Made by a program: the position numbers and the translations under genes. Below are positions 3,875-35,571 of a stretch of DNA of 37,907 nucleotides, one piece after another. The stretch spans positions 1-37,907 of the forward strand of contig NZ_FQZP01000023.1 of assembly GCF_900142095.1 (NCBI RefSeq), written 5' to 3'. A model generated the notes under the pieces. It saw nothing but the letters and a program-made list of their open reading frames with translations. It did no database searches and was not told where the DNA came from. This DNA is from Thermoclostridium caenicola. Lineage in GTDB: Bacteria; Bacillota; Clostridia; DSM-8532. Position 1 is the stretch's first letter; each line of letters opens with the position of its first letter.

Positions 3875-4705
3875 ATGCTAAAAAGCACGTTTCACACCCA
3901 CAGCCGGTTTGATGACGGGGCTTGCGACCTGGAGGACTATGTCCTGTCCGCCCTGAAGAAGGGTTTTTCTGTCCTTGGATTTTCAGCCCATGCTCCCGTA
4001 TTGTTTGACAGCGAATGGAACATGAAGCAGGAGGCCTGGGATGAATATATTGCCCTGACCAAATCCCTCAGGGACAAATACGGGGACAGGATTGAGATCT
4101 ACACCGGCCTGGAAACCGACTTTTACAAAGGCTGCACGGACTGGCGGAACAAGAAAGGAATTGATTATACCATAGGCGCCGTCCATTTCATACAGAATCC
4201 CGAAACGGGCAAATACTATGCCTTTGACGGCAGCCGCCAGGAATTCGAGGAGAACCTGGAGGTCAATTTCGGGGGCGATATCAGGCGCCTGGTTGCGGGC
4301 TACTACGGCCTGGTCAGGGAAATGCTCATGAAGATGACCCCCAACATCGTGGCCCACCTGGATGTGATCAGAAAGAACAACCAGGGCGGGCGGTTTTTTG
4401 ACGAGGATGAGGAATGGTACCGGGAAGAAGTCCTCAACACCCTTGAGGTCGTCGCTTTGACCCATGCCGTCCTGGAGATCAATACCGGGGGCATCTCAAG
4501 AGGCTATATGACCACCCCCTATCCCAGCAGGTGGATCCTGGAATACTGCCTGGACATGGACATCCCCGTTATGGTCAACTCCGATGCTCACCATCCCGAT
4601 GCTCTCGACTGCTCCTTTGAGGAAGCCTATGAACTTTTACGGGATGTGGGATTCAAGTCCCAGCGCATTCTCTACCGCGGAGAATGGAAGGATGTAGGGC
4701 TGTAG
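3875..4705 (+). CDS. PHP-domain phosphatase, HisJ/histidinol-phosphatase family
   Basis: 276 aa, matching the PHP-type histidinol phosphatases that hydrolyse L-histidinol phosphate. Metal-binding motifs are all present: FHTHS (H7, H9), GLETDF near 78, GAVHF near 104, HLDVI near 163 and SDAHH near 236. The same fold is used for other phosphoesters, and no histidine-biosynthesis genes are nearby, so the substrate is uncertain. The AAGGAG in the tail of the upstream gene is about 13 nt from the ATG, which is far and suggests translational coupling. It is followed 53 nt later by the polysaccharide gene on the same strand. Confidence 0.85.
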   Translation: MLKSTFHTHSRFDDGACDLEDYVLSALKKGFSVLGFSAHAPVLFDSEWNMKQEAWDEYIALTKSLRDKYGDRIEIYTGLETDFYKGCTDWRNKKGIDYTIGAVHFIQNPETGKYYAFDGSRQEFEENLEVNFGGDIRRLVAGYYGLVREMLMKMTPNIVAHLDVIRKNNQGGRFFDEDEEWYREEVLNTLEVVALTHAVLEINTGGISRGYMTTPYPSRWILEYCLDMDIPVMVNSDAHHPDALDCSFEEAYELLRDVGFKSQRILYRGEWKDVGL

Positions 4706-4758: not shown

Positions 4759-6990
4759 ATGAAAATCATACACCTGATCGGCGGGGGCGACGTGGGCGGT
4801 GCCAAGAGCCACGTCCTCTCACTGATAAAGGAACTGGGCAAGCATATCGACGTTACCCTGGTGTGTTACAGAAAGGGACCCTTCCATGAGGATGCGGTGC
4901 GGATGGGCATCGATTCCCGCGTTATCCGTACAGGAAACATCCTGGTCGATATCCGCAAAACCTTAAAGCTCGTGAGGGAAAACAAGTACGATATCATCCA
5001 TTCCCACGGCGCCAAGGCCAACATGATCGCCACCATCATCAGGCGCATCACCGGGATCCCGGTAGTCACAACCATTCACAGTGACTATCGCCTGGATTAC
5101 ATGAACAACCTGCTGAAACAGTTCTCCTTCGGCGTGATCAACATGATCTCCCTACGAAAAATCGATTACCACATCGGTGTTTCCGACAGCTACCGGAACA
5201 TGCTGATCGCGCGCAGGTTCAACCCCCAGCACGTCTTTACGGTATACAACGGTATCCCCTTTGACAACGAGATCCCGCCCTGCACCCGGCGCGAGTTTTT
5301 TGATCGCTATCGTATTCCCTTCCCCGAGGATGCCATCCTGGTCGGAATTATGGCCAGGCTGGATCCGGTCAAGGATCATGAAACCTTTATCCGGGCAGCG
5401 GCCGAGGTATTCAGGACCAACCCGAAGGTCCGTTTCATCATCGCCGGTCCCGGGGATGAACTCAGGCCCCGTCTTGAGCATCTGGCCGAAAAACTGGGCG
5501 TAAGGGACAAAATCTGCTTTACGGGCATGATTCATGAGCCCTACGACTTTTTCCAGATCATTGACATCAATGTGCTCACCTCCATCAGCGAGAGCTTTCC
5601 CTTCGTCATCCTGGAAGGCGCGCGCTGCTGCCGGGCGACAGTCAGCACCCGGGTGGGCGGCCTGGCCGATCTCATCGAGTCCGGTGTCAACGGCTACCTG
5701 ATAAAGCCCGGGGACTGGAAAGCCCTGGCAGGGCATCTTCTTGAACTGGCCAATGATGAGACGAAGCGAGCCGAGATGGGGCGGCGTCTGAAGGAAAAGG
5801 CGGAGAAAAAGTTCTCCCTGGAGAACATGTGCAAAACCCAGTTGGAGATCTATAACCGCATTCTCCGCATGGAAAGCCGCATCAGGAAGGACGGGAAGCT
5901 CTACGATATCGCCATACTCGGCTACTACGGTTACAGAAACAGCGGCGACGAAGCCATCCTGAAATCCATCGTCCATTCCCTGCTGGAGCGGAATCCGGAT
6001 CTGTCCATGGTAGTCTTCTCCAGAAAGCCCGGAGAGACCATGCGTAACACGGAGGTCAACGCCGTCAACCGCTTCAGCCTTTACCATGTGCTGAGGGTCA
6101 TGAAGCAGACCCGGCTGTTCCTGGCAGGAGGCGGCAACCTCATCCAGGACAACACCAGCACACGCTCCATCCTGTATTACCTGTGCATGCTGCGGCTGGC
6201 CAAGCGGTACAGGACAAAGACCATGCTCTTTGCCAACGGCATCGGCCCCATCAACCGCAAGGTCAACTGGCGCAGCGCAGCAAAAGTCCTGAATTGCCTG
6301 GATGCCATCACCCTGCGTGAACCGGTCTCCTATGAAGAACTCAAAAGAATGGGAGTCACCAAACCCATCATACACATTACATCGGATCCGGCCATCCTGC
6401 TGAACCCGGTTCCTTCCGATAAAGTGGACACGATCATGGCCTCCGAGGGCATACCCACGGACAAGCCCCTCATCGGCATCTCGGTGCGCAAATGGGCTGA
6501 CATGTCCTACCTGGACAAGATAGCCGCCCTCGGCGATTATTGCGTGGAGCGCTTTGACGCCCACCCGGTCTTTATCCCCATGCAGCATCCTTCGGACGTG
6601 AATGTCTGCGAGTCCATTATCAAAAAGATGAAGCACAAGGCCTGGCTGATCCGCAACATCTACCAGCCGGAGGAACTGCTGGGCTTTACCCAAAGGCTGA
6701 CGCTGATGATCGGCATGCGCCTTCATTCCCTCATCTATGCATCCAACCAGATGGTCCCTGTATTGGGACTGGTGTATGAACCCAAGGTGGATGCCTTCCT
6801 GAAAGAGGTATCCCAGCCATCCGCCGGATCCCCGCTTAATATGGATTTTCCTCAGGTCTGCAGGGTCCTGGAGGAGCTCTGGAACAACCGCGAAGCCATG
6901 CGCGAAAAGCTGGGCAGGGCCAGGGAACGCCTGGTGGAACTGGCCAACCGGAATGTTGACGTGGCGCTGAGCCTGCTGAACGATTCATAA
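4759..6990 (+). CDS. csaB: GT4 glycosyltransferase fused to CsaB-type polysaccharide pyruvyl transferase
   Basis: 743 aa, two enzymes in one chain. Residues 1-375 are a GT-B fold family-4 transferase: an N-terminal GGGDVGGAKSHV loop and the ESFPFVILEG donor-site motif near 278-287. Residues about 382-740 match CsaB polysaccharide pyruvyl transferases: GYYGYRNSGDEAIL, LAGGGNLIQD, ANGIGP and a late GMRLHSLIYA histidine motif. CsaB adds a ketal pyruvate to ManNAc of the secondary wall polymer, which SLH domains then bind. The fused transferase probably adds a sugar to the same polymer at the inner membrane face. I chose ATG 4759 because GAGGTAAGG precedes it; an in-frame ATG at 4684 overlaps the upstream gene and lacks a site. 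The 3' end overlaps the convergent gene by 6 bp. Confidence 0.88.
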   Translation: MKIIHLIGGGDVGGAKSHVLSLIKELGKHIDVTLVCYRKGPFHEDAVRMGIDSRVIRTGNILVDIRKTLKLVRENKYDIIHSHGAKANMIATIIRRITGIPVVTTIHSDYRLDYMNNLLKQFSFGVINMISLRKIDYHIGVSDSYRNMLIARRFNPQHVFTVYNGIPFDNEIPPCTRREFFDRYRIPFPEDAILVGIMARLDPVKDHETFIRAAAEVFRTNPKVRFIIAGPGDELRPRLEHLAEKLGVRDKICFTGMIHEPYDFFQIIDINVLTSISESFPFVILEGARCCRATVSTRVGGLADLIESGVNGYLIKPGDWKALAGHLLELANDETKRAEMGRRLKEKAEKKFSLENMCKTQLEIYNRILRMESRIRKDGKLYDIAILGYYGYRNSGDEAILKSIVHSLLERNPDLSMVVFSRKPGETMRNTEVNAVNRFSLYHVLRVMKQTRLFLAGGGNLIQDNTSTRSILYYLCMLRLAKRYRTKTMLFANGIGPINRKVNWRSAAKVLNCLDAITLREPVSYEELKRMGVTKPIIHITSDPAILLNPVPSDKVDTIMASEGIPTDKPLIGISVRKWADMSYLDKIAALGDYCVERFDAHPVFIPMQHPSDVNVCESIIKKMKHKAWLIRNIYQPEELLGFTQRLTLMIGMRLHSLIYASNQMVPVLGLVYEPKVDAFLKEVSQPSAGSPLNMDFPQVCRVLEELWNNREAMREKLGRARERLVELANRNVDVALSLLNDS

Positions 6991-8538
6991 TGGCAGGTTA
7001 TACCGTTTTATTACCCGGAACTGCCCCCTGTCATATTGGTAGAAGACGATGGCTGCCACCATCCAGAAATAGACGACCATGTAAGGCACTTCAAAAACGT
7101 TTTCAAACAGGTTGTGGACCAGTATGCCCATCATCCCGGCAAATCCGCCGATGATGACCAGCCTCCTGTCGGGATCCAGCGTGGTCCTGATCGCGCGCAC
7201 CGACCAGACAAAGAGTGCTGAAAGGACGATGAACCAGGCGATAAGGCCCGCCATACCCATCTCCACGGCTGTCTTGAGCCAATAGCTGTCCATGTAGAAG
7301 GTGTTGGGGAAAAGATCCCTGTGGTTCATGGCCACAGCCCCTCCGAAATGCCCCTGTCCCACACCGGTCCAGAAGTTTGCCATGAACATCTCCCAGCCGG
7401 TCTTGTAGCGTAAAAGCCGGCCTCCGGTAAGGCTGCTCATGATATACCGGGGCGAAAGCAGGTAGCTGATGCGGCTATACACGGACGGAATCAGCAGGAC
7501 AACAGCTCCCGCCGGCAGTGCCGCCGCAAGCCATCCGGGATTCCATGCCAGGCAGAAGACGAGCAGCGCAACGGCCATCCCGAGCCAGGCGCCCCTGGAC
7601 AGGGTCAGGATCAGGCAGATGCCCATGGCAGCCAGCATGACCAGGCAGAAAACGCGGCGGTATCTGTTTGTCCGCTCCCGGAGCGACCAGGCAAGGGCGA
7701 TGGGTATGAAAAGGACCATCAGGCTTCCCAGGATATTGGGACTTCCCACCACCGAAAAGACGCGAATTGCACGGGTTCCCTCGGCCGCATCAACCCAGTT
7801 GGAAGGGGTTTCAACGCCTGCAATATATTGCAGGATACCGTGAATGCCCAGAATGCCGCCTGCCCAAATCAGGCCGCATGTCATCCGGTTCGCTTTCCTG
7901 TCCGAATCCAGGTACCGGCTGAAAACATAGTACCAGAAAATAAACTGCACAGTGCCGCGCATGCCTTCAAAGCCCACATGGGGATATGGGGAATGATTCA
8001 GGTATAGATAAAAGGACACGGCGATCAGGAAGAACAGCGGGATGTCCAGGGGCGTGGACGTCACGGGCATGCCGGCCCTGCCCATGATCCCGGATATAAC
8101 CAGGAAAGCCACACAGGCCAGAAGATACACCTCGTCCCAAACCCCAAAAAGGCTTGCACCGAAAAAGCTCCTTCCCAACTCGTCAATGAAGACAAAAAAC
8201 ACCGAAGCCGGTATCAGACGGCGGGACAACATCCTTAAGAACCGGGATCCGCTTGCCATTCTCCAGACGAGGCTTTCCCGGATAACATCCGCCGCCTTAA
8301 GCCGGAAGGGCAGAAGGCTTGCATGCAAACTCCGAAGCAACCTGCAGGCATAAATCTGTTTCGGCCGGAATCGCCTGTGAAAATAGCGGGACAGCCATCT
8401 GGCCGTGCGGCTGTGTGAAACGACGGCACCAAGGCCCATCAACATCCGGCGGGTCAGGCTGTTTTCCCATATGGTCCTGCAAGATCTCATCAGGCGGTAA
8501 ACCAGGCTTTCCTTCAGCCACACCACCGCACGCTCCAT
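6985..8538 (-). CDS. Polytopic O-antigen ligase/Wzy-like polymerase
   Basis: 517 aa. An unusually long basic N-terminal cytoplasmic stretch (about 105 residues, rich in Arg) precedes roughly ten hydrophobic helices. The Wzy_C signature LTLSRGAWLG lies near 309-318, followed by a large extracytoplasmic loop (about residues 350-420) typical of WaaL/Wzy enzymes. These join or polymerise lipid-linked glycan units outside the membrane. The family does not separate ligase from polymerase by sequence. In this cluster it most likely polymerises or transfers the secondary wall polysaccharide. A GGGAGG site lies 8 nt before the ATG. It follows the DUF4330 gene by 13 nt. Confidence 0.82.
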   Translation of the reverse strand: MERAVVWLKESLVYRLMRSCRTIWENSLTRRMLMGLGAVVSHSRTARWLSRYFHRRFRPKQIYACRLLRSLHASLLPFRLKAADVIRESLVWRMASGSRFLRMLSRRLIPASVFFVFIDELGRSFFGASLFGVWDEVYLLACVAFLVISGIMGRAGMPVTSTPLDIPLFFLIAVSFYLYLNHSPYPHVGFEGMRGTVQFIFWYYVFSRYLDSDRKANRMTCGLIWAGGILGIHGILQYIAGVETPSNWVDAAEGTRAIRVFSVVGSPNILGSLMVLFIPIALAWSLRERTNRYRRVFCLVMLAAMGICLILTLSRGAWLGMAVALLVFCLAWNPGWLAAALPAGAVVLLIPSVYSRISYLLSPRYIMSSLTGGRLLRYKTGWEMFMANFWTGVGQGHFGGAVAMNHRDLFPNTFYMDSYWLKTAVEMGMAGLIAWFIVLSALFVWSVRAIRTTLDPDRRLVIIGGFAGMMGILVHNLFENVFEVPYMVVYFWMVAAIVFYQYDRGQFRVIKRYNLPL

Positions 8539-8551
8539 GGCCAGGCCTCCC

Positions 8552-9052
8552 TCACTTTTTCTCCTTCAGGTCCAATACCAATCCGTTGGTGGAATAGGCA
8601 TAAGGGGTTTTAAGGGTGAAGCTTCCCCCCACGCAGACCGCGTATCGGCCCACCTTGACGCCCTCATCCCTGGGATCGTCCTGGATCTCGATCTGCACAT
8701 ACACATCCTTCAGGTTCGGATCATAGACCACGGCTGTGCCGTCAACCGGGGTTACGCTCATGACCTGGGCTTCCTCTTCCTTGATTTCGATAACCCGGGC
8801 ATTGACGAAACCATCGGTCTCGTAATACAGCCGGTTGTCCATCATGATGCTCTCCATGAAGTTATCGGGTACAGAGGAGCATTTGATGGTGGCTATCCAG
8901 GTCTTGGTCTGGGCTTTGGCCTGTTTCTCGTTGCTCTTGGCCACGATCCGCATGCCCGCCGCAACCAGCAGGATGACCAGCGCCGTGAGCGCCAGCAGGT
9001 CAAACAGGTTAATCAAACCAAACAAGCGTCCTCTCTCGTCTATCAGTTTCAT
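8552..9052 (-). CDS. DUF4330-family membrane protein
   Basis: 166 aa from the ATG at 9052. The opening MKLIDERGRLFGLINLFDLL followed by one hydrophobic helix (to about residue 36) is the DUF4330 signature. The remainder is predicted to lie outside the membrane and is beta-rich, ending in LVLDLKEKK. Function is unknown; DUF4330 genes often sit among polysaccharide genes, as here. I prefer 9052 because GGGAGG stands 6 nt upstream. The in-frame TTG at 9073 would overlap that ribosome site. It lies between the GT4 gene (76 nt upstream) and the Wzy-like gene on the same strand. Confidence 0.8.
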   Translation of the reverse strand: MKLIDERGRLFGLINLFDLLALTALVILLVAAGMRIVAKSNEKQAKAQTKTWIATIKCSSVPDNFMESIMMDNRLYYETDGFVNARVIEIKEEEAQVMSVTPVDGTAVVYDPNLKDVYVQIEIQDDPRDEGVKVGRYAVCVGGSFTLKTPYAYSTNGLVLDLKEKK

Positions 9053-9128
9053 TGAAACCTCCCGCAAGTTCAAATTAATTGGGTAAGCAATACCGGATAT
9101 GAAATATATGCGTCTTAGATGCCGCCTG

Positions 9129-10397
9129 TTACGGCAGCTTCATTCCAGCCATCCCGTCCATGATCCCGGCAAGCTTTTCGGTTAGTGCCCTTCGGCTGTA
9201 CTGCCGGATCACCTCATGGTCGGGATCAAGCCTGAGGCGGTCCTCACGCCATCTGTCATACAGTTCGGCCAGCCCCTGTTCAATGGCTCTTGGATTGGAC
9301 CAGTCACAGACGATGCCGGTCCGGGTCTTTTGGATAAGTTCTGCCGCCGCCCCCTTTTCAGGCACCAGAGCCAGTATGGGCCGGTTGGTCCGGATATATT
9401 CAAACAGCTTTCCCGTGTAAAAACACTCGGAACCCCTGCCGCCTTCCAACAGGAGCAGGACATGGGATCGCAGCATGTTGCCGATACAGTCCCGGTGGGT
9501 CATATAGGGAAGAACCTCCACAACCCCTTCCAGGCCGTTTCGGGCTGCCGCCTGGATGACGGACTGATCCTTGATGTTGCCGATGAACCGGATGCGCAGG
9601 CGCTCCCTGGGGATACGCCCGGTTTTGACAAGGCGGCCAGCCGCTTCCAGGAAGCCGTCAGGCGTTCTCCTCCCGTACAGGGAACCGGTATAGGTTACTG
9701 TGAAACGGTTGTCCGGGCTTTCCGCGCCGCTTTGCTCAAAATCCTCCTCGTCAAAGCCGTTGGGGATGACCCACATGCGCCGGTCCAGCTTCAGATCCGG
9801 ATGCCGGCTCTCAAAATTGCGCTTCATCACCGGCGTATTGGCTATCAGCATATCCGCCGTTTCCAGGACCATTCTTTCCATCAGACTTTCACGCCTGGCC
9901 CGCCATGCCGGATGGGGCTTGTCCAGGAGATAGGGGTTGTTGGTCCATTCATCCCTGAAATCCGCTATCCAGGGCAGCTCAGGGTAGATTCTCTTAATGC
10001 CGAGACCCATCAGGTGATCGGAATAGGGATAGGAGGTGGTATAGAGGCAATGGATATCCCCCCTCCCTATCCTTGCGAGGGCTTCCTTTACGGCCCGCTT
10101 CATCCAGAGGATTTCGCCGTCGGGGATCAGGACCTTCCAGGCAATGAATTTGCCCACCTTGGACAAAATGCCGGGAAAGGCCGTCAGATCCCTGGGAGGT
10201 GTCCGGATGATTTCCATATCGGCCGGAAGATCCTGGAGCAGGGTGTCATCCCGCAATCCGATACGTTTATCGCTTCTGGTCAGCACAACAGGTTCCCAGC
10301 CAAAGGCGGGCAGGTATTTGGCAAACTTAGCGCTTCTCTGGACCCCCGATCCCCCCGCCGGCGGGAACTGGTACGCCACCATCAGGACTTTTTTCAT
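9129..10397 (-). CDS. Family 4 glycosyltransferase (WcaI/TuaC-like)
   Basis: 422 aa. The N-terminus MKKVLMVAYQFPPAGGSGVQ is the typical acceptor-side loop of GT4 enzymes with a Glyco_trans_4-like N-domain. VTYTGSLYGRRTPDGFLEA in the middle marks the donor domain. The C-terminal half contains LLLLEGGRGSECFYTGKLFEYI, which carries the EX7E-like acidic pair in modified form. It probably transfers a nucleotide-sugar unit to the lipid-linked polymer; the sugar cannot be read. GGGGGAG precedes the ATG by about 8 nt. Its first 71 nt overlap the 3' end of wecC in another frame, so the two are translationally linked. Confidence 0.83.
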   Translation of the reverse strand: MKKVLMVAYQFPPAGGSGVQRSAKFAKYLPAFGWEPVVLTRSDKRIGLRDDTLLQDLPADMEIIRTPPRDLTAFPGILSKVGKFIAWKVLIPDGEILWMKRAVKEALARIGRGDIHCLYTTSYPYSDHLMGLGIKRIYPELPWIADFRDEWTNNPYLLDKPHPAWRARRESLMERMVLETADMLIANTPVMKRNFESRHPDLKLDRRMWVIPNGFDEEDFEQSGAESPDNRFTVTYTGSLYGRRTPDGFLEAAGRLVKTGRIPRERLRIRFIGNIKDQSVIQAAARNGLEGVVEVLPYMTHRDCIGNMLRSHVLLLLEGGRGSECFYTGKLFEYIRTNRPILALVPEKGAAAELIQKTRTGIVCDWSNPRAIEQGLAELYDRWREDRLRLDPDHEVIRQYSRRALTEKLAGIMDGMAGMKLP

Positions 10398-11661
10398 CGG
10401 CGTGTCTCCCCCATCCCAGCAGATGATAGCGCAGGCCCGCGGCCTCCACCTCCTCCGGTGGCCAGAAGTTCCTGGTATCCAGCACGCAAGGGTAGGCCAT
10501 GCTCTCCCTGATCCGCCTGAAATCCACCTGCCTGAATTCCCGGTGGTTCACGGCAAGGAGCAGCAGATGGCAGCCCCTGACAGCCTCGTATAAGTCCCTT
10601 TCCCTGGAGCCTTCGTAGTCCGCATGCCTGTCGACGGTGATAACCGAATAGCCGCCCTCAGCCTTAAGCAGGGAAATCAGGCGGATGACCGGGCTCTCCC
10701 GCAGATCATCCACATCGGGCTTATAGGTTACACCCAGCACGCAGATGCGCTTCGTGCCGTCGATATCCTTCATAAGGGTCCTGATCTTTTCCAGCACGAA
10801 CCGGGGCATGGCATCGTTGATCCTTCTGGCCAGGCCAATCATCCGGGCGGTTTCCGGCAGACGCTGGACGATGAACCAGGGATCCACGGCAATGCAGTGG
10901 CCGCCCACGCCCGGTCCAGGGTAATGGAGGTTGACCCTGGGGTGTTTATTGGCATACCGGATGACCTCCCAGGCGTTGATGCCCAGTTCCTCGCAGATCA
11001 TGGCCAATTCGGCGGCAAGCGCGATATTGACATCGCGGTAGGTGTTTTCCATAAGCTTGCACATCTCGGCTGTGGTGGCATCGGTTATGTACATCTCCCC
11101 CCGTACAAAACAGCTGTACAGGTTTCGGACCCTCACGGCGGATTCGGTGTTGATCCCGCCTATCACCCGGCTGTTGTGCACCAGTTCGGTGAGGATCCGG
11201 CCGGGCAGGACCCGCTCCGGGCAGTAGGCCACAAAAAGATCCGTTCCCGGCTCCAGTCCCGATTCCCGCAAAATGCCGCACACCATGTTCCTTGTGGTCC
11301 CCGGCGGGGACGTGGATTCCAGGATGACCATGTTCCCCTTCCTGACAACGGGCAGGATGGAACGCACGGCGCGCTCAATGTAGCTCAGGTCTGCCGAATG
11401 GTCCGGGTTGACCGGTGTGGGCACACAGATTATGTACGCATCCGCGGGTAAGGGTTCCCTGCCGGGAATCAGCCTTCTTTCCGAAACCGTCCAACGCACC
11501 ACCTCCCCAAGCCCGGGCTCGCTGAAGAAAGCCTCTCCCCTGCCCAGGGTCTCAAGAATCCTTTCATTGACATCGACCCCCAGCACATAGTGTCCGTTTG
11601 ATGCGAACATGGCCGCTGTGGGAAGACCGATATAGCCAAGGCCGATGACGCACAGCTTCAT
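10327..11661 (-). CDS. wecC: UDP-N-acetyl-D-mannosamine dehydrogenase
   Basis: 444 aa. It oxidises UDP-ManNAc to UDP-ManNAcA using two NAD+. The NAD-binding loop GLGYIGLP lies at residues 6-13. The active-site region HPRVN..PGPGVGGHCIAVDPW (Cys near 255) is very close to what I recall of E. coli WecC and differs from UDP-glucose dehydrogenases. A C-terminal GVTYKPDVDDLRESP motif completes the family pattern. The first ATG is at 11661; an upstream in-frame TTG (11691) has no site. The C-terminal tail of about 24 residues is Gly/Pro/Arg-rich and is encoded in the stretch shared with the GT4 gene, so it may not be conserved. No UDP-GlcNAc 2-epimerase gene is in the window. Confidence 0.9.
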   Translation of the reverse strand: MKLCVIGLGYIGLPTAAMFASNGHYVLGVDVNERILETLGRGEAFFSEPGLGEVVRWTVSERRLIPGREPLPADAYIICVPTPVNPDHSADLSYIERAVRSILPVVRKGNMVILESTSPPGTTRNMVCGILRESGLEPGTDLFVAYCPERVLPGRILTELVHNSRVIGGINTESAVRVRNLYSCFVRGEMYITDATTAEMCKLMENTYRDVNIALAAELAMICEELGINAWEVIRYANKHPRVNLHYPGPGVGGHCIAVDPWFIVQRLPETARMIGLARRINDAMPRFVLEKIRTLMKDIDGTKRICVLGVTYKPDVDDLRESPVIRLISLLKAEGGYSVITVDRHADYEGSRERDLYEAVRGCHLLLLAVNHREFRQVDFRRIRESMAYPCVLDTRNFWPPEEVEAAGLRYHLLGWGRHADEKSPDGGVPVPAGGGIGGPEKR

Positions 11662-11737
11662 ACCAACACCCCGGGTTTTGCTTGCACGCAAGATGCGGCA
11701 TCGGTACGGCTCCGCCGCCCGATGCGGAAATGACGCC

Positions 11738-11793: not shown

Positions 11794-11821
11794 TGAGTCG
11801 ATGTCAAAGGTGGAAAACCCT

Positions 11822-12550
11822 ATGGAGAAAATAAATATCCATGGCGTGATGATGGACAATGTGACCATGGACGAGGCACTCGGATTTGTGGTAGAAAGGC
11901 TGGACGGCCCAGGCATTGCAAAGATTTATACGCCCAACTCGGAGATCATGATGCAGGCCCAGAGGGATCCGGCACTGAAGGATATTCTCAACCAGGCGGA
12001 TTTGCTTATTGCCGACGGGGCAGGCGTAGTGCTGGCCTCCAGGATACTGAGGAGGCCTCTGAAAGAAAAGGTCTCCGGAATTGACCTGGTGAAAAGAATA
12101 CTGGAGAATACCCGGACCCGGCCAACCAGCTTTTTCATCCTCGGGGCCAAACCTGGGGTGGCCGAGAAGGCCGCCATCAATATCATCTCCGATTATCCGA
12201 AAGCGGAGATCAAAGGCTGGCATCACGGCTACTTCCAGCCCGGGGAAGAGGACGGCATCATCGAAAAGATCAACGACAGCGGAGCGGAGGTCCTGCTGGT
12301 GGGCTTAGGCGCCCCCAAGCAGGAGAAGTGGATCCACAGGAACGCCTCACGCCTTAACTGCAAGGTGGCCATGGGCATCGGCGGCAGCATCGACGTGCTG
12401 GCCGGCACAGCGTCCCTGGCGCCGGAATTCATGCGTCGTTCCGGCCTGGAATGGCTGTTCAGGCTTTACAAGGAGCCCAGGCGTTTCCGACGCATGCTGG
12501 ATCTGCCGCGGTTCATGATGCTTTCGATCAGAAAACGCTTCGGGTTGTAA
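11822..12550 (+). CDS. tagA: WecG/TagA/CpsF-family N-acetylmannosaminyltransferase
   Basis: 242 aa, the normal size for GT26 enzymes that add ManNAc (or ManNAcA) to lipid-linked GlcNAc at the start of wall-polymer synthesis. Family landmarks: TPNSEIMMQAQRDP near 32-45, LLIADGAGVVLASR (the conserved Asp) near 61-74, and LVGLGAPKQEKW near 158-169. The ATG at 11822 has AAAGGTGG 8 nt upstream; an in-frame ATG at 11801 has none. Divergent from wecC. With wecC and the CsaB domain it points to a ManNAc-containing, pyruvylated secondary wall polymer. Confidence 0.9.
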   Translation: MEKINIHGVMMDNVTMDEALGFVVERLDGPGIAKIYTPNSEIMMQAQRDPALKDILNQADLLIADGAGVVLASRILRRPLKEKVSGIDLVKRILENTRTRPTSFFILGAKPGVAEKAAINIISDYPKAEIKGWHHGYFQPGEEDGIIEKINDSGAEVLLVGLGAPKQEKWIHRNASRLNCKVAMGIGGSIDVLAGTASLAPEFMRRSGLEWLFRLYKEPRRFRRMLDLPRFMMLSIRKRFGL

Positions 12551-16589: not shown

Positions 16590-19500
16590 TCATCCTCTCG
16601 GGTATACCATCAGCGCTTTCAACGTGTCAATAAACCTCTCCCCGTGACTTGGAATTTCAATGCCGCTCAACCTGGAACCTTTCAGATGCACGATCTTGTC
16701 GGCAGTCACATCCTCTATCTTCAGCATTCCTCCTTTCTCCACGGTGAACCGGATTTTGACTTTATGCCTATCAAATATCTGCTGCAAGGTCTTGGTGACG
16801 GCGTTCATGCGTTTCTGGTCATAGGACAGGAGAAACCTCAAACGGTTGATGTAATCTTCCATCACGCTGCAGGTTTTGCCAGCCTCCAACCGCCATCCGT
16901 TTTTCCGCATCAGATCCAGATGGGCAACATCATTCCGCACACCTAAATACTTAGACCCCTTATTCTCAGGGAAATAAACGCTTTCAAAGGCATTCATGTT
17001 TTCGCCTTTCAGCGTATCCACCAGATTGCGAATAATGTTGCCTTCAGAGAAGATATCTCTGACATCTTCCTCCTTTATCCCGTCCAGTTTGCCCTGTCTG
17101 ACCCACGCCAAAAGGAGGAAGTACATATCCCGCTCCCAGTCCTGGACAAACCCCACCCATCGGGAGAGGATTTCAAGATTGAGGACGCATATTTCATACA
17201 ATGAACTGAAGGACAGGTTTTTCACGGCCTGGTTATAGTCCTCAAGCCGCCGGAGAACCTTCTCATACAGTTTGCAGTCCTCCTCCGTAAATCGGGACGG
17301 GGATTCGGCGTACTTCCTATGGAGCCGCTGCAAAAGGCATTGGGCCTGTTCAGCGGAAGAGATATCCGCTCCATTCTCATCCTTCACGTTCCAATGTTTT
17401 TCCGACCAGAGCAAGTAATCTCTTTTGAGCGCCTGCTTGTGGCTGGCAAGCACCTTTTGGTACACTCCCATAAGCCCCGAGCGCAGCAACCGGCTCATGT
17501 TCCTCCGATATACCGGCGTGTTGTTGTCGCTCTGAAGATAAAAAGCCTCATAATTTTTCATGTTTCCTTCAATAAAGTCTTCAAACGCTTCTTTAGCCCG
17601 TTTCCCCCATACTTCCTCCGCAAACTGGGGCTCCGGTTCCGTCAGCTTGACCAGTTCGGTCAATTCCTCAATCTGCCCGGCTATCCTTATTTCTTCACTG
17701 AAATTGCTCTCACCCTGCCAACTGGCCAGGGATGTCCGATAACGGATCATCTGCTGCTGAAGCTCTCCCAGTTCCCTTTCGTCCAGCAGGCGCAGGACGG
17801 GATAGAGCACCAGGAGATGCCCTTCCGGTTCTTTTTCGTCTATAGATGTTTTCAAATCCACCGTTTTGCTTTCTTTTACCCATTTCTTCGCCGCTTCGGC
17901 ATCTTTCCTGGGGCTCATGATCTCAAGGTATTCTTCGCCATAGTGCGCCTCCAGGAAATCGTTAAAGGCCTCGGCAAAGATATCGAGGATAAAGCGCTGG
18001 GCATAATCCGTTTTTTCCTGTGCCAGTTCCCGGCTCTCCCTTTCGGTTTCGGAGATCCTCCGCTGCAATTGCTTCATGAGATCGGAAAGCGGCATGCCTT
18101 CATGATACAGCTCTTCTATAACGCTGTATCCATGGGCCTTACCTTGATTTGGCCCTTGGCCTTCAGACAGCTGCCTGTTTCTTTCCAAAACCTTATGGAT
18201 CTTGCCGGTCACCAGGGTTTCATCCTTCTGCACCTCCGGCAGGAAATGGTGCCTATATATCAGCAGCAGAAGGTTCCGCAGGGCACGCTGGGCATCCACA
18301 TCGGTATCGAATTCAACGTTGTTTTCCACATCGGCTGCCGATTCCGCATAGGCCTCCACAGCCCAGTTGAAATGGGTATCGGCGCTATCCCCAGCCGCAA
18401 GCTGTCGGAACCATTTCAGCCGGTCGCCATCCTGCCCGTTCTGTCCGTTGGATGCCTCGGCTTTCATGCGTTCGCACTCGAACTCCCGGCGCAGATTTTT
18501 ACCACGCTCATAGACCCTCTGAAAGGACGGTGTCATCTGGATCTTGGCGCTGTACAGGAAAAACGCCGTCCCTTCTTTTTTGAAAATGCGGGATAATAGA
18601 TCCTCCCTGTAATACAGCGGAAGGTTCATGCTGCTGATTCTTTTGGCAAACGCCTTTTTGAGGTTTCTCCTGTCCAACAGGTAAATGGCCCGGAGCACAG
18701 ACAAATCCTCCGGTTTCACTTTATCGGCGATCCTTTTGAGCGCCTGTATCAAGGTCACATTTTTATAATGAAAGATATGATGTCTCAGCTCCCCGATGCA
18801 GGAAACGCACTCCGCCAGCAACTGGTTGCAGAGCTTCCGATCATCCCTGACGATGTGCCCGATCGCTTTGAAATCCGTTGTATCAGCCTGCTTATTGTCT
18901 GTTTCCTGTAATCCTTTTGCATCCTCCTTAATCTTTTCCTGCAATTCTTTCAGCGGGAAGAAGTCCTGCAGTTTTTCCTTGCAGGCCTCAACATCTTCAT
19001 GGGTATATTTATTCGTGTCTCTGAGAAATTTATCTCTGAAATCTTTAATCGGGTTTTTATTGCTCAAGATATCGCCGTCTTCAAACTGGTAAAAATAGCG
19101 CAGACGGGATATGGACCACAGCACGGCCGTCATGGCCTGCTTTTTTACCGCTTCATGGACCTGTATCCTTTGCAGCGTCTCGCTGTTTACCAAAAGCCTG
19201 CCGTCTTCCCCGCAGCAATATGCATAAAGCTTTCCATAAAGGATGTGCATCTGGGTACTCTGGTTGATCAGCCTGCGGCGAACGGCATTAGCCATATGCT
19301 TGGGTTCCAGCAGACGGGAAAGGGACGTCTTATCCTTGAGCAATTCCTGCCGCAGGCGGGCGCCCATCCGTTTTGTCCGGATGGGAAAATTGTCCTTAAA
19401 GTACTCCTGTACGGCCTGAAAGTAATACTTCAGATCCTGCTGTCGCGAGGGAGACTTCTCCCAAAGCTCCCGGAGATATTGCTTCAGGGCCTCATCGACC

Positions 19501-20267
19501 GCCATGGCTATGGAACGGGGTCGGCCTTGGCAACGGCTTATCTTTTCGTGCAGCGTTTTGGACAGCTTGTCAAAGTCGAATACTTCTTCCAACTCGCCTA
19601 AGAGCGGGTAGCAGTCGGTTATTCCTTTTGCCGGGTCCGCCGGCTTCATGAGCCCCAGCAGCCAGGCCGCACGGTCATTATTGGGTGTAATGCCGCCATC
19701 CTCTTGGATTCTCAGCGGTATTTTATTGTTCTTGATGGAATACCGGACGCGGTTGATGCGGTTTTCCTTTTCCTTTATTAATGCCTCCCGGATTTTGCCC
19801 AGTTCAGCTTTGGCCATGGCCTGCTTTAAAGGGTTTCCTTCTACCAGGTAAAACAAGGCATCGTTGAGGGTCATGGCGCCTTCTGGGGCGGTATACCTTT
19901 TACCGTATTCGGAAAGGGTACCGTCCAATTGCTTTTTCAGATTTTTAATCTCTTTTTCATTCTTGGGGCGCAGCTTTTCGTTCCTCTCCATGCTTTTCAT
20001 GATCTCCGCCACATCCGCACCCTGGCACAGTTTCTCCACCAGCTTGACGATCTCGTTGCTGTAGAATCTTTTGTCTCCCTTTTCGGGTGTTTTCAAAAGC
20101 CGGTTTCTCAGCGATCTTTCAAATGTATCCTGCGCAATATCATTAAACAGGGTATCGGTATAATCCTGCTTTCTGTCGTTCTGTGCCAGGAGCCTGCCGG
20201 AGTCCTCATCCCGGTAGAAGTAAAGCGGCGGATGATGCTCTCCCCATTTCCTTTTCGTGATCTTCAT
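16590..20267 (-). CDS. cas13a: Cas13a (C2c2), RNA-guided RNase of type VI-A CRISPR
   Basis: 1225 aa single effector that binds crRNA, cuts complementary RNA and then cleaves bystander RNA. The two HEPN catalytic motifs are intact: R495-X4-H500 (ELRHHIFH) and R1111-X4-H1116 (VRNDVAHL). Their 616-residue spacing compares with 576 in LbuCas13a (R472/H477, R1048/H1053). Stretches such as QDWERDMYFL near 1042-1051, LRNLLLLIYRHHFLPEV near 663-679 and LLSYDQKRMNAVTKTL near 1147-1162 are close to Herbinix Cas13a as I recall it. That identifies VI-A rather than Cas13b or Cas13d. The last of these aligns with the LbuCas13a R1079/K1080 processing pair and reads Q1151/K1152. GGAAGGGGG precedes the ATG by about 7 nt. 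It is the only cas gene in the window. Confidence 0.96.
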   Translation of the reverse strand: MKITKRKWGEHHPPLYFYRDEDSGRLLAQNDRKQDYTDTLFNDIAQDTFERSLRNRLLKTPEKGDKRFYSNEIVKLVEKLCQGADVAEIMKSMERNEKLRPKNEKEIKNLKKQLDGTLSEYGKRYTAPEGAMTLNDALFYLVEGNPLKQAMAKAELGKIREALIKEKENRINRVRYSIKNNKIPLRIQEDGGITPNNDRAAWLLGLMKPADPAKGITDCYPLLGELEEVFDFDKLSKTLHEKISRCQGRPRSIAMAVDEALKQYLRELWEKSPSRQQDLKYYFQAVQEYFKDNFPIRTKRMGARLRQELLKDKTSLSRLLEPKHMANAVRRRLINQSTQMHILYGKLYAYCCGEDGRLLVNSETLQRIQVHEAVKKQAMTAVLWSISRLRYFYQFEDGDILSNKNPIKDFRDKFLRDTNKYTHEDVEACKEKLQDFFPLKELQEKIKEDAKGLQETDNKQADTTDFKAIGHIVRDDRKLCNQLLAECVSCIGELRHHIFHYKNVTLIQALKRIADKVKPEDLSVLRAIYLLDRRNLKKAFAKRISSMNLPLYYREDLLSRIFKKEGTAFFLYSAKIQMTPSFQRVYERGKNLRREFECERMKAEASNGQNGQDGDRLKWFRQLAAGDSADTHFNWAVEAYAESAADVENNVEFDTDVDAQRALRNLLLLIYRHHFLPEVQKDETLVTGKIHKVLERNRQLSEGQGPNQGKAHGYSVIEELYHEGMPLSDLMKQLQRRISETERESRELAQEKTDYAQRFILDIFAEAFNDFLEAHYGEEYLEIMSPRKDAEAAKKWVKESKTVDLKTSIDEKEPEGHLLVLYPVLRLLDERELGELQQQMIRYRTSLASWQGESNFSEEIRIAGQIEELTELVKLTEPEPQFAEEVWGKRAKEAFEDFIEGNMKNYEAFYLQSDNNTPVYRRNMSRLLRSGLMGVYQKVLASHKQALKRDYLLWSEKHWNVKDENGADISSAEQAQCLLQRLHRKYAESPSRFTEEDCKLYEKVLRRLEDYNQAVKNLSFSSLYEICVLNLEILSRWVGFVQDWERDMYFLLLAWVRQGKLDGIKEEDVRDIFSEGNIIRNLVDTLKGENMNAFESVYFPENKGSKYLGVRNDVAHLDLMRKNGWRLEAGKTCSVMEDYINRLRFLLSYDQKRMNAVTKTLQQIFDRHKVKIRFTVEKGGMLKIEDVTADKIVHLKGSRLSGIEIPSHGERFIDTLKALMVYPRG

Positions 20268-21079: not shown

Positions 21080-21439
21080 TTACTGCACGTATGTATTCGC
21101 CAGTCCAACGCTCGTACGGAGGGCTTGATCGACTTTTCTCATCAGGTTGTCATCCAAATGTCCCGCCTTCTCTCTCAGCCGTCTCTTGTCGATGGTCCGC
21201 ACCTGTTCCAGGAGGATGACGGAGTTCCGGCTGAGTCCATAGGCCTCGCCCTTGAACGGAATATGGGTTGGAAGCCTTGCCTTGTCCATTTGTGAGGTAA
21301 TGGCTGAAATGATAACCGTAGGGCTGTACTTGTTGCCGATATCGTTCTGGATGACCAGAACCGGCCTTACGCCTCCCTGTTCCGAACCAACCACCGGGCT
21401 CAGGTCGGCATAGAAGATGTCACCTCTTCTAATCTGCAT
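21080..21439 (-). CDS. ndoA: MazF/PemK-type mRNA interferase (EndoA)
   Basis: 119 aa, close to B. subtilis EndoA (116 aa), a toxin that cuts single-stranded mRNA at short U-rich sites. The opening [21 protein letters not shown] with R25 ([11 protein letters not shown]) and T48 (SAITSQ) matches the catalytic Arg and Thr of that family. The end [13 protein letters not shown] fits the dimer helix. In Bacillus the antitoxin EndoAI lies between alr and ndoA. Here the 180 nt between them are non-coding and contain a promoter, so no antitoxin is present. The ribosome site is weak (AAGGA about 11 nt upstream), suggesting low expression. Confidence 0.9.
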
Positions 21440-32617: not shown

Positions 32618-35518
32618 TTATTCCCTGAAATAGGCAGTAATGGCTTCGGCAATGCTTTTGGCAAGCCGGGTTTGCTCTGCTTCGTCTGTCAGCCACTCAA
32701 ACTCCTGCGGGTTGGGCACAAAACCGGTTTCCAGGAGTATCGAAGGCATCCAGGTTCCGCGGGTAACATAGAAATTGCGCACATGCGTCCCCTTCAGGGT
32801 TCGGCCCAGAGAACCGGTAACATGGTTATACAGCAGTTCAACCAGGTCTTTGGCCAGGGGCTCCCGGTACCATACCGAGAATCCGTCCACCTTGGAAATA
32901 TCCACATTATCCGCCATGCTGTTGGCATGCAGGGATACAAACAGGTCCGGAAGCATCATTTTGGACATGGCCAGCCTGTCTTCCAGGGATACGGTCCTGT
33001 CATCCTCCCTGGTCAGGTATACCCTGGCCCCCAGGGCTTCCAGCTCTGCAGCAAGTTTTTTGGCCAGGTTTAAGTTGATGTCTTTTTCCGCATAGCGCAA
33101 TCCCAGCGGTCCAATAGCTCCCGTCTCGGTTCCGCCATGGCCGGGATCCAGCATGATGGACAGGCCTTTCAGGGGAAGGCTCTGATCCTTTGACTGCGGC
33201 TTGCGCTTAACATGCAGCAGCAATCCGCCGGACGTCTTTTCAATATAGTAGCCGGTCAGTTTCTCCCCAGGCCTTACGGTCAGGGTCATGAGCGTCCCGC
33301 TGTCGCTATTTTGGGCAATCGTTACGGAAGAGATGAGGGCATTGGGTGGCAGCTGGGGCGCTTCCGCCCTGCAGGTTGCCGAAACCGTGAGTTTTACCTG
33401 GGTTCCGTCAAAGACGGCGAATGCGGCCGGAGAAAGTGTTGCATCCAGCTTCAGGGTCTCCCATCCCTCTCCGATGACGTATTCAACCTGCTTGATATCG
33501 GACTGTATTTTGAAATTCAAATCATAAACATTGACATCATTCTTGTTCACCCATTGTCCGGAGGACAGGCGGACGTAGCTTCCCGACATTCCGGTGACCG
33601 CATCCAGCATACCGGAATAGAGCTGGTGCCTGCCGCCGTTATCGGATGAAGGCTCATCGAAGGTATAGGTCATGGGTACCTTGACCTCGGCATAGACTGG
33701 TGCGCCTTTCATGATGACGCCCACAACGGCTGCCCCTTTCTGGGTGCTGGTTGTACCTTTATAGTTCATGGTATAGACCGGAACGCCCAGGTCCACCTTT
33801 CTGGGATTACCCGCATAGTTTGGCAGGGTATAGTCATAGGTAAAGGTGGCGGCATACAGGCCGGAGTCGCTGGGGGTTGCCGTTTGCTGCTTCATGGTAT
33901 AGGTCTTCCCGTCAATCTGGACCGTCACCTTGGATCCGGCAGGCGCCTGGCAGGACAGGGTGATGGTCTCACCCGGCATCCCGTAGACCGGCGATCTCGG
34001 GAAGGTGGAGCTTGCAGGGATTTCAGCCTTGCTCATCTTCTGTGGACCCGAAGAGACGGTTCTCGTGATGACACGGGTTACCGAATACCCGTCCTGGGTG
34101 AAGGTGAACCGGTTCTCTCCCGGCTGAAGCGTTATAAGAATACCGAAATATCCCCGGGAGGACCTGCCGCTGACTGGCAGGCCGTTCAGGTAAAGCGGCT
34201 TTTCGGGATCCGACGCACCGTTGAGATAGTACTTGTCCAGGCTGGTGGTGATGTTGCCGGAAGGCCTGGACACGATGAGCCCGGTTTTTCCCGCCAGTTC
34301 ATCCCGCCGGGCGTAGACTGCCTTTATGGCAGCCGCAAGTTCCGGATAGTTGGCCAGGGAGTTGTAGGTAAACATGATGCTGCCCTTGACCTCTTCCACC
34401 GTGTCGTTCAGCTCAAGCTGCCTCACGATTTCCTGCGTGCCGTGCCAGGGGCTGTTCGGATTGGCATCGCCGGCTTTATAGGCCGCCATACCGATATAGA
34501 GATCCACCCCGGTGCCGGCGACGGCATTCTTCCACCAGGTCAGCAGCTTGCTGTAATCGGCCACCGAATAGCCGATATTCCAGTAAAACTGTGGCGCGAT
34601 ATAGTCGATGATGCCGTCCTTCACCCATTTCAGGGAGTCGGCATAATGGCTTGAATAGGACTGCAGGCCGTTGGTGTCGCTCCCCAAGGGGTTTGATGAG
34701 CGGTTGGCCCAGATGCCGAAGGGGCTGATGCCGAACCGGACACTGCTTCGGGTGACTTTTATGGCATAGTAGCAATCCCGGATCAGGGTATTTACGTTTT
34801 CCCTGCGCCAGTCGTCAAGGCTCTGACCGGGGGATTTGTATTTCTCATATGTGGCCTTGTCGTTGAAGGAGGTGTCGGGATAGAAATAGTCGTCGAAATG
34901 GATGCCATCCACATCGTAGTTTTTGACGATTTCAAGCACCCCGTCAATGATGAGCCGCCTCACTTCGGGAATGCCCGGATCAAAATAGAGGTTGCCGTCC
35001 GGGTGCTTGACCACCCACTGGGGATTCAGTACGGCAGGATTGGTGGGTGCCAGCGAGGCAAAATCATGGGAGGGCTGGTTCCACTCCTTCTTGGTCACGC
35101 GATAGGGGTTGATCCAGGCATGCAGTTCCAATCCCCGTTTATGGGCTTCCTCAGTCCAGAAGGCGAGCGGATCAAAACCGCCGTCGGGCGCAACACCCTG
35201 CTTTCCGGTCAGATACCTGGACCAGGGAAAGAGGCTTGACTTGTAGAAAGCATCCGCGGTGGGCCTCACCTGGAGGAAGACGGCGTTAAAGCCTGTATCC
35301 TTGGCCAGATCCAGGATCTTTATGGCTTCGCTCTTCAAGGTTTCTGAATCGGTCGTGGGCTTCTTAGGATAGTCGATGTTCACCACCGTTGATACCCAAA
35401 GGCCACGGAAATCGCTTTTCGCTGTCTTCCCGGGCAATGTGTCGTTTGCCGCAAATGCCGGGCAGGCCATCGACAGGATCAGGATGACGACCATCAGAAA
35501 TTTCGCCATTTTCTTCAT
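32618..35518 (-). CDS. Secreted GHL10-type glycosidase fused to N-acetylmuramoyl-L-alanine amidase
   Basis: 966 aa. A signal peptide (1-23, ending ACPAFA) directs export. Residues about 33-340 match the GHL10/DUF187 hydrolase-like barrel (FRGLWVSTVVNIDYP, VFLQVRPTADAFYKSSLFPW, DVDGIHFDDYFYP). A middle region holds Ig-like and SH3-like stretches, including SGSYVRLSSGQWVNKNDV. The last 180 residues are a zinc amidase_3 domain with ligands in DPGHGG (His near 793), AEKD (near 807) and SLHAN (near 862), and catalytic Glu in LLETGFVPN (near 928). It probably cuts stem peptides from peptidoglycan, with the barrel acting on glycan. ATG 35518 has AGGAG 7 nt upstream. Confidence 0.87.
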   Translation of the reverse strand: MKKMAKFLMVVILILSMACPAFAANDTLPGKTAKSDFRGLWVSTVVNIDYPKKPTTDSETLKSEAIKILDLAKDTGFNAVFLQVRPTADAFYKSSLFPWSRYLTGKQGVAPDGGFDPLAFWTEEAHKRGLELHAWINPYRVTKKEWNQPSHDFASLAPTNPAVLNPQWVVKHPDGNLYFDPGIPEVRRLIIDGVLEIVKNYDVDGIHFDDYFYPDTSFNDKATYEKYKSPGQSLDDWRRENVNTLIRDCYYAIKVTRSSVRFGISPFGIWANRSSNPLGSDTNGLQSYSSHYADSLKWVKDGIIDYIAPQFYWNIGYSVADYSKLLTWWKNAVAGTGVDLYIGMAAYKAGDANPNSPWHGTQEIVRQLELNDTVEEVKGSIMFTYNSLANYPELAAAIKAVYARRDELAGKTGLIVSRPSGNITTSLDKYYLNGASDPEKPLYLNGLPVSGRSSRGYFGILITLQPGENRFTFTQDGYSVTRVITRTVSSGPQKMSKAEIPASSTFPRSPVYGMPGETITLSCQAPAGSKVTVQIDGKTYTMKQQTATPSDSGLYAATFTYDYTLPNYAGNPRKVDLGVPVYTMNYKGTTSTQKGAAVVGVIMKGAPVYAEVKVPMTYTFDEPSSDNGGRHQLYSGMLDAVTGMSGSYVRLSSGQWVNKNDVNVYDLNFKIQSDIKQVEYVIGEGWETLKLDATLSPAAFAVFDGTQVKLTVSATCRAEAPQLPPNALISSVTIAQNSDSGTLMTLTVRPGEKLTGYYIEKTSGGLLLHVKRKPQSKDQSLPLKGLSIMLDPGHGGTETGAIGPLGLRYAEKDINLNLAKKLAAELEALGARVYLTREDDRTVSLEDRLAMSKMMLPDLFVSLHANSMADNVDISKVDGFSVWYREPLAKDLVELLYNHVTGSLGRTLKGTHVRNFYVTRGTWMPSILLETGFVPNPQEFEWLTDEAEQTRLAKSIAEAITAYFRE

Positions 35519-35571
35519 ATCGTTTCTCCTATGTAAGATTTTTTGGGGATTCCTGCCTTCCATTTTAGCAG

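Follow-up and report, generated by a model that had tools for sequence, protein, structure and literature searches.

The DNA analyzed here, referred to as the window, is a stretch of 37,907 nucleotides from Thermoclostridium caenicola. It contains a single stop-free reading frame in which a GT4 glycosyltransferase is followed by a CsaB-type pyruvyl transferase (Table 1). An alternative in-frame ATG at position 4684 would lengthen the product to 768 amino acids. The start at 4759 is favored, because an AGAGG motif is found 8 nt ahead of it and because that methionine is the first residue in 11 of the 17 rows of alignment A1. Chance or an assembly error was rejected as the source of the fusion, since neither domain is truncated and full-length relatives keep the frame at 35-85% identity. 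The reverse strand of the fusion frame contains stops. An antisense ORF of 524 amino acids (5152-6726) runs in a different frame from the fusion and was given no weight.

Table 1. Fusion gene, its parts and the neighboring genes (positions in the window)
Feature	Position	Strand	Size, evidence or remark
GT4-CsaB fusion gene	4759..6990	+	743 aa; Pfam, NCBIfam, AlphaFold model
N-terminal GT4 domain, type A, predicted retaining type	4759..5874	+	residues 1 to about 369-372; Pfam, HepE fold match
Helix 354-378, leading from GT4 to CsaB	5818..5892	+	DSSP of model
C-terminal CsaB ketal-pyruvyl transferase domain	5896..6987	+	Pfam, TIGR03609, conserved residues, model
Wzy_C / O-antigen-ligase-type membrane protein, candidate polymerase or ligase	6985..8538	-	convergent neighbor of the fusion; Pfam
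DUF4330 protein	8552..9073	-	family accompanies GT4-linked CsaB
Second GT4-like transferase	9129..10397	-	Pfam
Nucleotide-sugar dehydrogenase	10327..11691	-	nearest UDP-ManNAc dehydrogenase, 435.2 bits, just under the cut-off of 459
TagA/WecG ManNAc transferase, expected maker of the CsaB acceptor	11801..12550	+	Pfam, NCBIfam; 4.8 kb downstream of the fusion

Near relatives of the window share this arrangement, with PHP, the fusion, then convergent genes for Wzy_C, DUF4330, a glycosyltransferase and a nucleotide-sugar dehydrogenase, and TagA beyond. In many Acetivibrio-like loci, TagA is found immediately downstream of the fusion.

The whole fusion was modeled with AlphaFold2 from 38 sequences (pLDDT 93.0, pTM 0.89), and the CsaB half was also modeled alone (pLDDT 93.7, pTM 0.90). 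The helix 354-378 is predicted to be continuous between the two domains, with no floppy linker, and according to DSSP it runs nearly straight into the first CsaB strand of the model (382-387).

The CsaB half scores 260.6 bits with TIGR03609 (residues 384-691) against an equivalog cut-off of 213.1, and PS_pyruv_trans (PF04230) matches residues 394-674 with an E-value of 9.8e-38. Since the TIGR03609 cut-off is exceeded on the whole protein, the fusion would be annotated as plain 'CsaB'. R520, R577, R654, H656 and K676 are invariant in all 38 rows of alignment A3. Paenibacillus alvei CsaB requires Y14, R148, R207 and H308, and its K328 takes part in PEP binding (PMC6030368, PMC10435577). The spacing of R306, H308 and K328 in that enzyme equals the spacing of R654, H656 and K676 here, a correspondence by spacing and not by direct alignment. 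From motif and order only, R520, R577 and Y390 (the last kept in at least 90% of the 38 A3 rows) are the likely counterparts of R148, R207 and Y14. The two systems also have SLH and TagA partners in common, but the P. alvei protein is a stand-alone enzyme of 396 amino acids (PMC10435577), whereas the CsaB of the window has a GT4 of 372 amino acids ahead of it. Pvg1p (5ax7) was not among the best 50 of 309 fold matches of the CsaB half (E-value of at most 0.001), where GT-B proteins were matched, and a match between Pvg1p and the CsaB half was not found by sequence either; this absence does not speak against such a fold.

In the N-terminal half, the Pfam GT4 models (Glyco_transf_4 and Glycos_transf_1) cover residues 12-345. 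Among NCBIfam models it resembles TIGR03088, BshA and MshA, with scores below the cut-offs of all three. The model of residues 1-368 has a GT-B fold and matches HepE (4xso; Z 39.5, rmsd 2.8, 351 aligned residues) as well as BshA and MshA. H107, R200, K205, E278 and E286 are invariant in all 138 rows of the GT4 subfamily termed type A below; E278 and E286 form the EX7E motif, and R200 and K205 are the donor-site arginine and lysine expected of GT4. Judging from its family, the enzyme is probably a retaining transferase. The fold, EX7E and the donor-site residues are common to BshA, MshA, HepE and PglA, but identity with these proteins is 18-24%, and the GT4 of the window differs from them in being fused to CsaB. 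The domain searches thus confirm a preliminary description of this DNA, in which one chain was said to contain GT4 and CsaB, each in complete form, and the conserved residues identify the N-terminal half as intact rather than degenerate.

The preliminary description had also implied that the fusion is rare, which was overstated. In the family of the window, all 25 of 25 genomes have an above-cut-off csaB match, in a frame of at least 744 amino acids. Universality, which that description had named as counting against it, thus holds for the family but not for the order, where a second family, represented by a single genome, has an unfused csaB frame of 368 amino acids (1/1). In the class, csaB was detected in 204 of 391 genomes at an E-value threshold of 1e-40. 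Of the 150 class rows listed from these 204, 90 reach 700 amino acids (24 families) and 60 do not (19 families), with six families holding both sizes. In other classes of the phylum, nearly all of the csaB frames listed have about 350-500 amino acids, in line with the earlier statement that CsaB is usually a separate protein, and G467 alone reaches 700. Of 551 relatives in a scan of named genomes, 80 were kept, among them Acetivibrio straminisolvens, A. alkalicellulosi, Herbivorax, Oscillibacter valericigenes, Evtepia gabavorous and Flavonifractor plautii. The fusion as a rarity of one lineage was therefore rejected. In the Acetivibrio, Oscillibacter and Flavonifractor relatives, the attachment of proteins through SLH domains may be important for the degradation of cellulose and for life in the gut.

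Both domains are known, and by title or abstract a natural GT4-CsaB fusion is without description in the open-licence PMC literature searched. GT4-CsaB fusions are absent from the published CsaB sequence network of 2019 because of its length filter, as only proteins of 250-600 amino acids were admitted (PMC6801904, section 5.3.1). That all six frames of 626-677 amino acids outside the class are GT4 fusions was rejected: five of them are CsaB-TagA/WecG fusions from other classes of the phylum (L178:1064-2890, L179:3051-5033, L180:1941-3935, L181:2600-4531 and L182:864-2747), and in the sixth (G577, L183) CsaB is an ORF of its own. As in the window, the fusion partner of CsaB in these five proteins acts in the same pathway as CsaB, but there it is a C-terminal TagA and here it is an N-terminal GT4.

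Not all GT4 halves belong to one family. Some fusions have an N-terminal half that scores just 27-51 bits against that of the window, and these were termed type B. Type A was found in 93 of the 391 class genomes (71 in frames of at least 700 amino acids) and type B in 85 (60 in such frames), and the two occur together in only one of 177 genomes (G039). On the GT4 tree, each type forms one clade (support 100* and 99*; the 3 outgroup rows are on long branches), so that a single GT4 family behind all fusions was rejected. Type B keeps the second glutamate of EX7E, has a gap in place of the first in 40/40 rows, and has an arginine for the donor-site lysine (K205) in 39/40. The fusion partner of CsaB therefore need not be a standard GT4. 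Type-B GT4 proteins (L042:346-1485 and other rows) may work with a different donor or have no activity. One type-B match (G212:C99:43829-44968, L187) has an in-frame TAG, either from a broken gene or from a sequence error.

Unfused copies are mostly neighbors of csaB. Distances were taken between match ends, and the unfused sets (22 of type A, 25 of type B) include some truncated frames. Where both genes are on one contig, the unfused GT4 precedes csaB in the same orientation in 11 of 12 genomes for type A and in 17 of 18 for type B, the latter 24-192 nt away. The type-A set divides into four copies within 100 nt of csaB, seven at about 2.2-2.5 kb, one on the other strand, three on another contig and seven without a listed csaB row; the type-B set comprises the 17 nearby upstream copies, three on another contig, one on the other strand and four without a listed csaB row. 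The opposite-strand unfused GT4 is that of G039. In L246, L247 and L249, the 2.2-2.5 kb gap is occupied by DUF4330, a small ORF and Wzy_C, giving the order GT4A-DUF4330-small ORF-Wzy_C-CsaB-TagA in L247 and L249; in L248, Wzy_C is present in the gap and DUF4330 was not seen. Type-B loci have MurJ and Wzy_C downstream in L250 and L254, and not in L251, L252 and L253. Stand-alone GT4 genes beside stand-alone csaB genes (Tissierella praeacuta L103, L043, L247) encode the two domains in the same order as the window, but separately.

The grouping of the CsaB domains is not that of the GT4 types. Of 224 rows, thinning left 102 for the CsaB tree: 34 of the 132 A-fused, 19 of the 25 B-fused and 49 of the 67 others. 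Seven A/B changes were counted on 65 rows, only two of which are forced by starred branches. A single origin of the A-coupled CsaB domains was rejected (AU p 0.000394, quick tree, 65 rows), from which we conclude that partners changed; lateral transfer or recombination could likewise mix the A and B labels on this tree. In family f22, type A is found in G078 and G197 and type B in G045, G104, G131 and G153, and the csaB genes of the five of these six genomes included in the tree cluster with one A fusion (SH-aLRT 90). Fusion and splitting are recurrent, with six fused/split changes on the GT4 tree and, on that of CsaB, ten changes among four labels. That two GT4 types are joined to one partner, CsaB, suggests a coupled step of wall building. 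Coupling of sugar transfer and pyruvylation, as proposed earlier, gains indirect support from these two fused subfamilies and from the proximity of most unfused copies. The further idea from the preliminary description, that joining the enzymes determines which residue is modified, is a conjecture.

In order to relate the fusion to other genes, 80 genomes were picked by hand on the basis of their completeness: 25 of the 71 A-fused, 20 of the 60 B-fused, 15 of the 25 with csaB without GT4 (no A or B at an E-value of 1e-60), and 20 without csaB (at 1e-40; one of these, G032, has a weak csaB match of 5e-6). These genomes are related, so that the following counts are not independent trials. SLH proteins were found in all 60 csaB genomes (25/25, 20/20 and 15/15) versus 2/20 without csaB; together with the literature, this bears out the association of CsaB with SLH proteins assumed earlier. 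The genome of the window has 30 SLH matches. TagA likewise accompanies csaB, in 59/60 genomes (25/25, 20/20 and 14/15) versus 5/20. Wzy_C does not separate the groups (25/25, 20/20, 11/15 and 10/20).

Two further families do separate the csaB genomes. DUF4330 was detected in 24/25 A-fused, 19/20 B-fused and 0/15 GT4-less genomes of the 60 with csaB, and DUF5693 in 3/25, 2/20 and 15/15, respectively, and in 0/20 genomes without csaB. The 45 genomes with a GT4-fused csaB thus have DUF4330 in 43 cases and DUF5693 in 5. Within the fetched stretches of 50 class loci, DUF5693 was present in 0/36 with GT4 and in 9/14 without; as for the remaining five, a type-A GT4 lies past the fetched stretch in L034, L036 and L044, and L019 and L038 are at contig ends. 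Among the 38 csaB loci of the phylum search, the fetched stretch contained DUF5693 in 35, a type-B fusion in one and neither in two. csaB therefore has two alternative partner sets. On the CsaB tree, the DUF5693 group largely coincides with a single deep side (exceptions are L013 and L016, within the GT4 side), and since the genomes are also related, few independent events lie behind these counts. In most GT4-less loci, DUF5693 is upstream of csaB (L032, L030, L031, L013, L016, L178).

The published biochemistry provides the frame for interpretation. P. alvei CsaB acts on lipid-PP-linked GlcNAc-ManNAc, and the polymer has a disaccharide repeat with pyruvate on every repeat, whereas the repeat of Bacillus anthracis is one alpha-GlcNAc longer and pyruvate is found on the terminal ManNAc alone (PMC6030368). 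With WcfO, a lipid-linked disaccharide is pyruvylated before the repeat is complete (PMC6801904, PMC6030368). The SLH domains of P. alvei SpaA bind terminal Pyr-ManNAc alone, at the non-reducing end, and they no longer bind it in solution when its O3 carries a sugar (PMC6081394). P. alvei, with its split TagO/TagA/CsaB pathway, and the WpaA/WpaB model for B. anthracis have lipid-linked GlcNAc-ManNAc, pyruvylation and Wzy-clan candidates in common with the window, but the portions of PMC6030368 on which we draw do not mention a fused GT4. The same source calls polymerization and ligation of the repeats open questions, and PMC6081394 asks why some polymers carry pyruvate on all repeats even though SLH domains read only the end.

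With slightly better than even confidence, we regard the fusion as a bifunctional cytoplasmic enzyme of secondary cell wall polymer synthesis that works on a lipid-linked precursor, both pyruvylating its ManNAc and attaching the next sugar. Und-PP-GlcNAc-ManNAc would come from TagO and TagA. The CsaB half would transfer pyruvate from PEP onto ManNAc as a 4,6-ketal, and the GT4 half would extend this same precursor by the next sugar in alpha linkage, the intermediate passing between the two active sites of one protein. After being flipped, the finished unit would be joined by the Wzy_C protein, and its pyruvylated ManNAc would anchor SLH-domain proteins. In this scheme we infer the donor, the acceptor, the order of the steps, the channelling and the roles of Wzy_C and DUF4330. 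In favor of the scheme are the CsaB score, the conserved residues of both halves, the position of most unfused GT4 genes, the linkage to SLH and TagA, the CsaB-TagA fusions and the precedent of WcfO. Against it are the nonstandard type-B GT4s and the unfused GT4 genes that are on another contig or strand than csaB. Genes of one pathway also fuse without channelling, which counts against that part of the scheme. The difference between the P. alvei and B. anthracis repeats, together with the retaining type, makes an adder of a further alpha-linked sugar the best reading of the GT4 half, and the loss of SLH binding upon substitution of O3 (PMC6081394) implies that the GT4 may act on a residue other than that of CsaB. 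With both sites on one protein for the presumed lipid-linked precursor, step order and competition would be measurable in one tube.

Less probably, the halves merely serve the same polymer at different residues, and the fusion just keeps the two enzymes co-made and together. The recurrent fusion and splitting would fit such a role, as would the split neighbors in Tissierella praeacuta L103, L029, L043 and L045, which are presumably equivalent to the fusion, but the coupling of CsaB to two GT4 subfamilies argues for more than chance co-transcription. We give slightly less credence to a switch in which the halves compete for one lipid-linked ManNAc, the GT4 extending unpyruvylated ends and CsaB capping them, so that the ketal cap sets chain length and leaves an SLH-binding end. 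In favor of such a switch, a 4,6-ketal blocks O4 and O6. Since SLH domains read terminal Pyr-ManNAc only (PMC6081394), glycosylation of the same ManNAc would hide that copy from them, and the B. anthracis polymer, longer by one alpha-GlcNAc and pyruvylated at its terminal ManNAc alone, also fits. However, P. alvei has pyruvate on each repeat, with CsaB working at the disaccharide stage (PMC6030368), and the Wzy_C neighbor suggests block polymerization of finished units and not growth at one end. A non-catalytic GT4 half, acting as a scaffold or sugar-binding module, is improbable: type B might allow it, without the first glutamate of EX7E and with arginine for K205, but type A, the type of the window, keeps all five residues listed above.

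Returning to the bifunctional enzyme and the two partner sets of csaB, we tentatively suggest that the class may have a second route, so far undescribed and marked by GT4-CsaB, to the wall polymer bound by SLH domains. On the first route, a disaccharide repeat would be built by DUF5693-CsaB-TagA. On the second, a GT4 of type A or B would be coupled to CsaB, accompanied by DUF4330, Wzy_C and in some lineages MurJ, with a further sugar added and Wzy-like polymerization. The two routes would seldom occur in one genome, and within the second, distant GT4 subfamilies would have been swapped while CsaB stayed.

Some minor observations concern other genes. The genome of the window has a second group of Wzy_C, DUF4330 and GT4 away from that in the window (G000:C11:46722-49931). 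Four further minus-strand features of the window are a protein of 443 amino acids with a weak PP2C-phosphatase-like match (38.4 bits, under the cut-off) and a C-terminal LysM (472-1803), an ORF of 1225 amino acids with zero Pfam matches (16590-20267), a protein of 981 amino acids with GHL10 glycosyl-hydrolase-like and Amidase_3 domains (32618-35563), and a Mutator-family transposase close to the contig end (36083-37183). A MazF/PemK-type toxin gene (21080-21439, minus strand) is found near an alanine racemase gene, and both recur in Acetivibrio-like neighborhoods.
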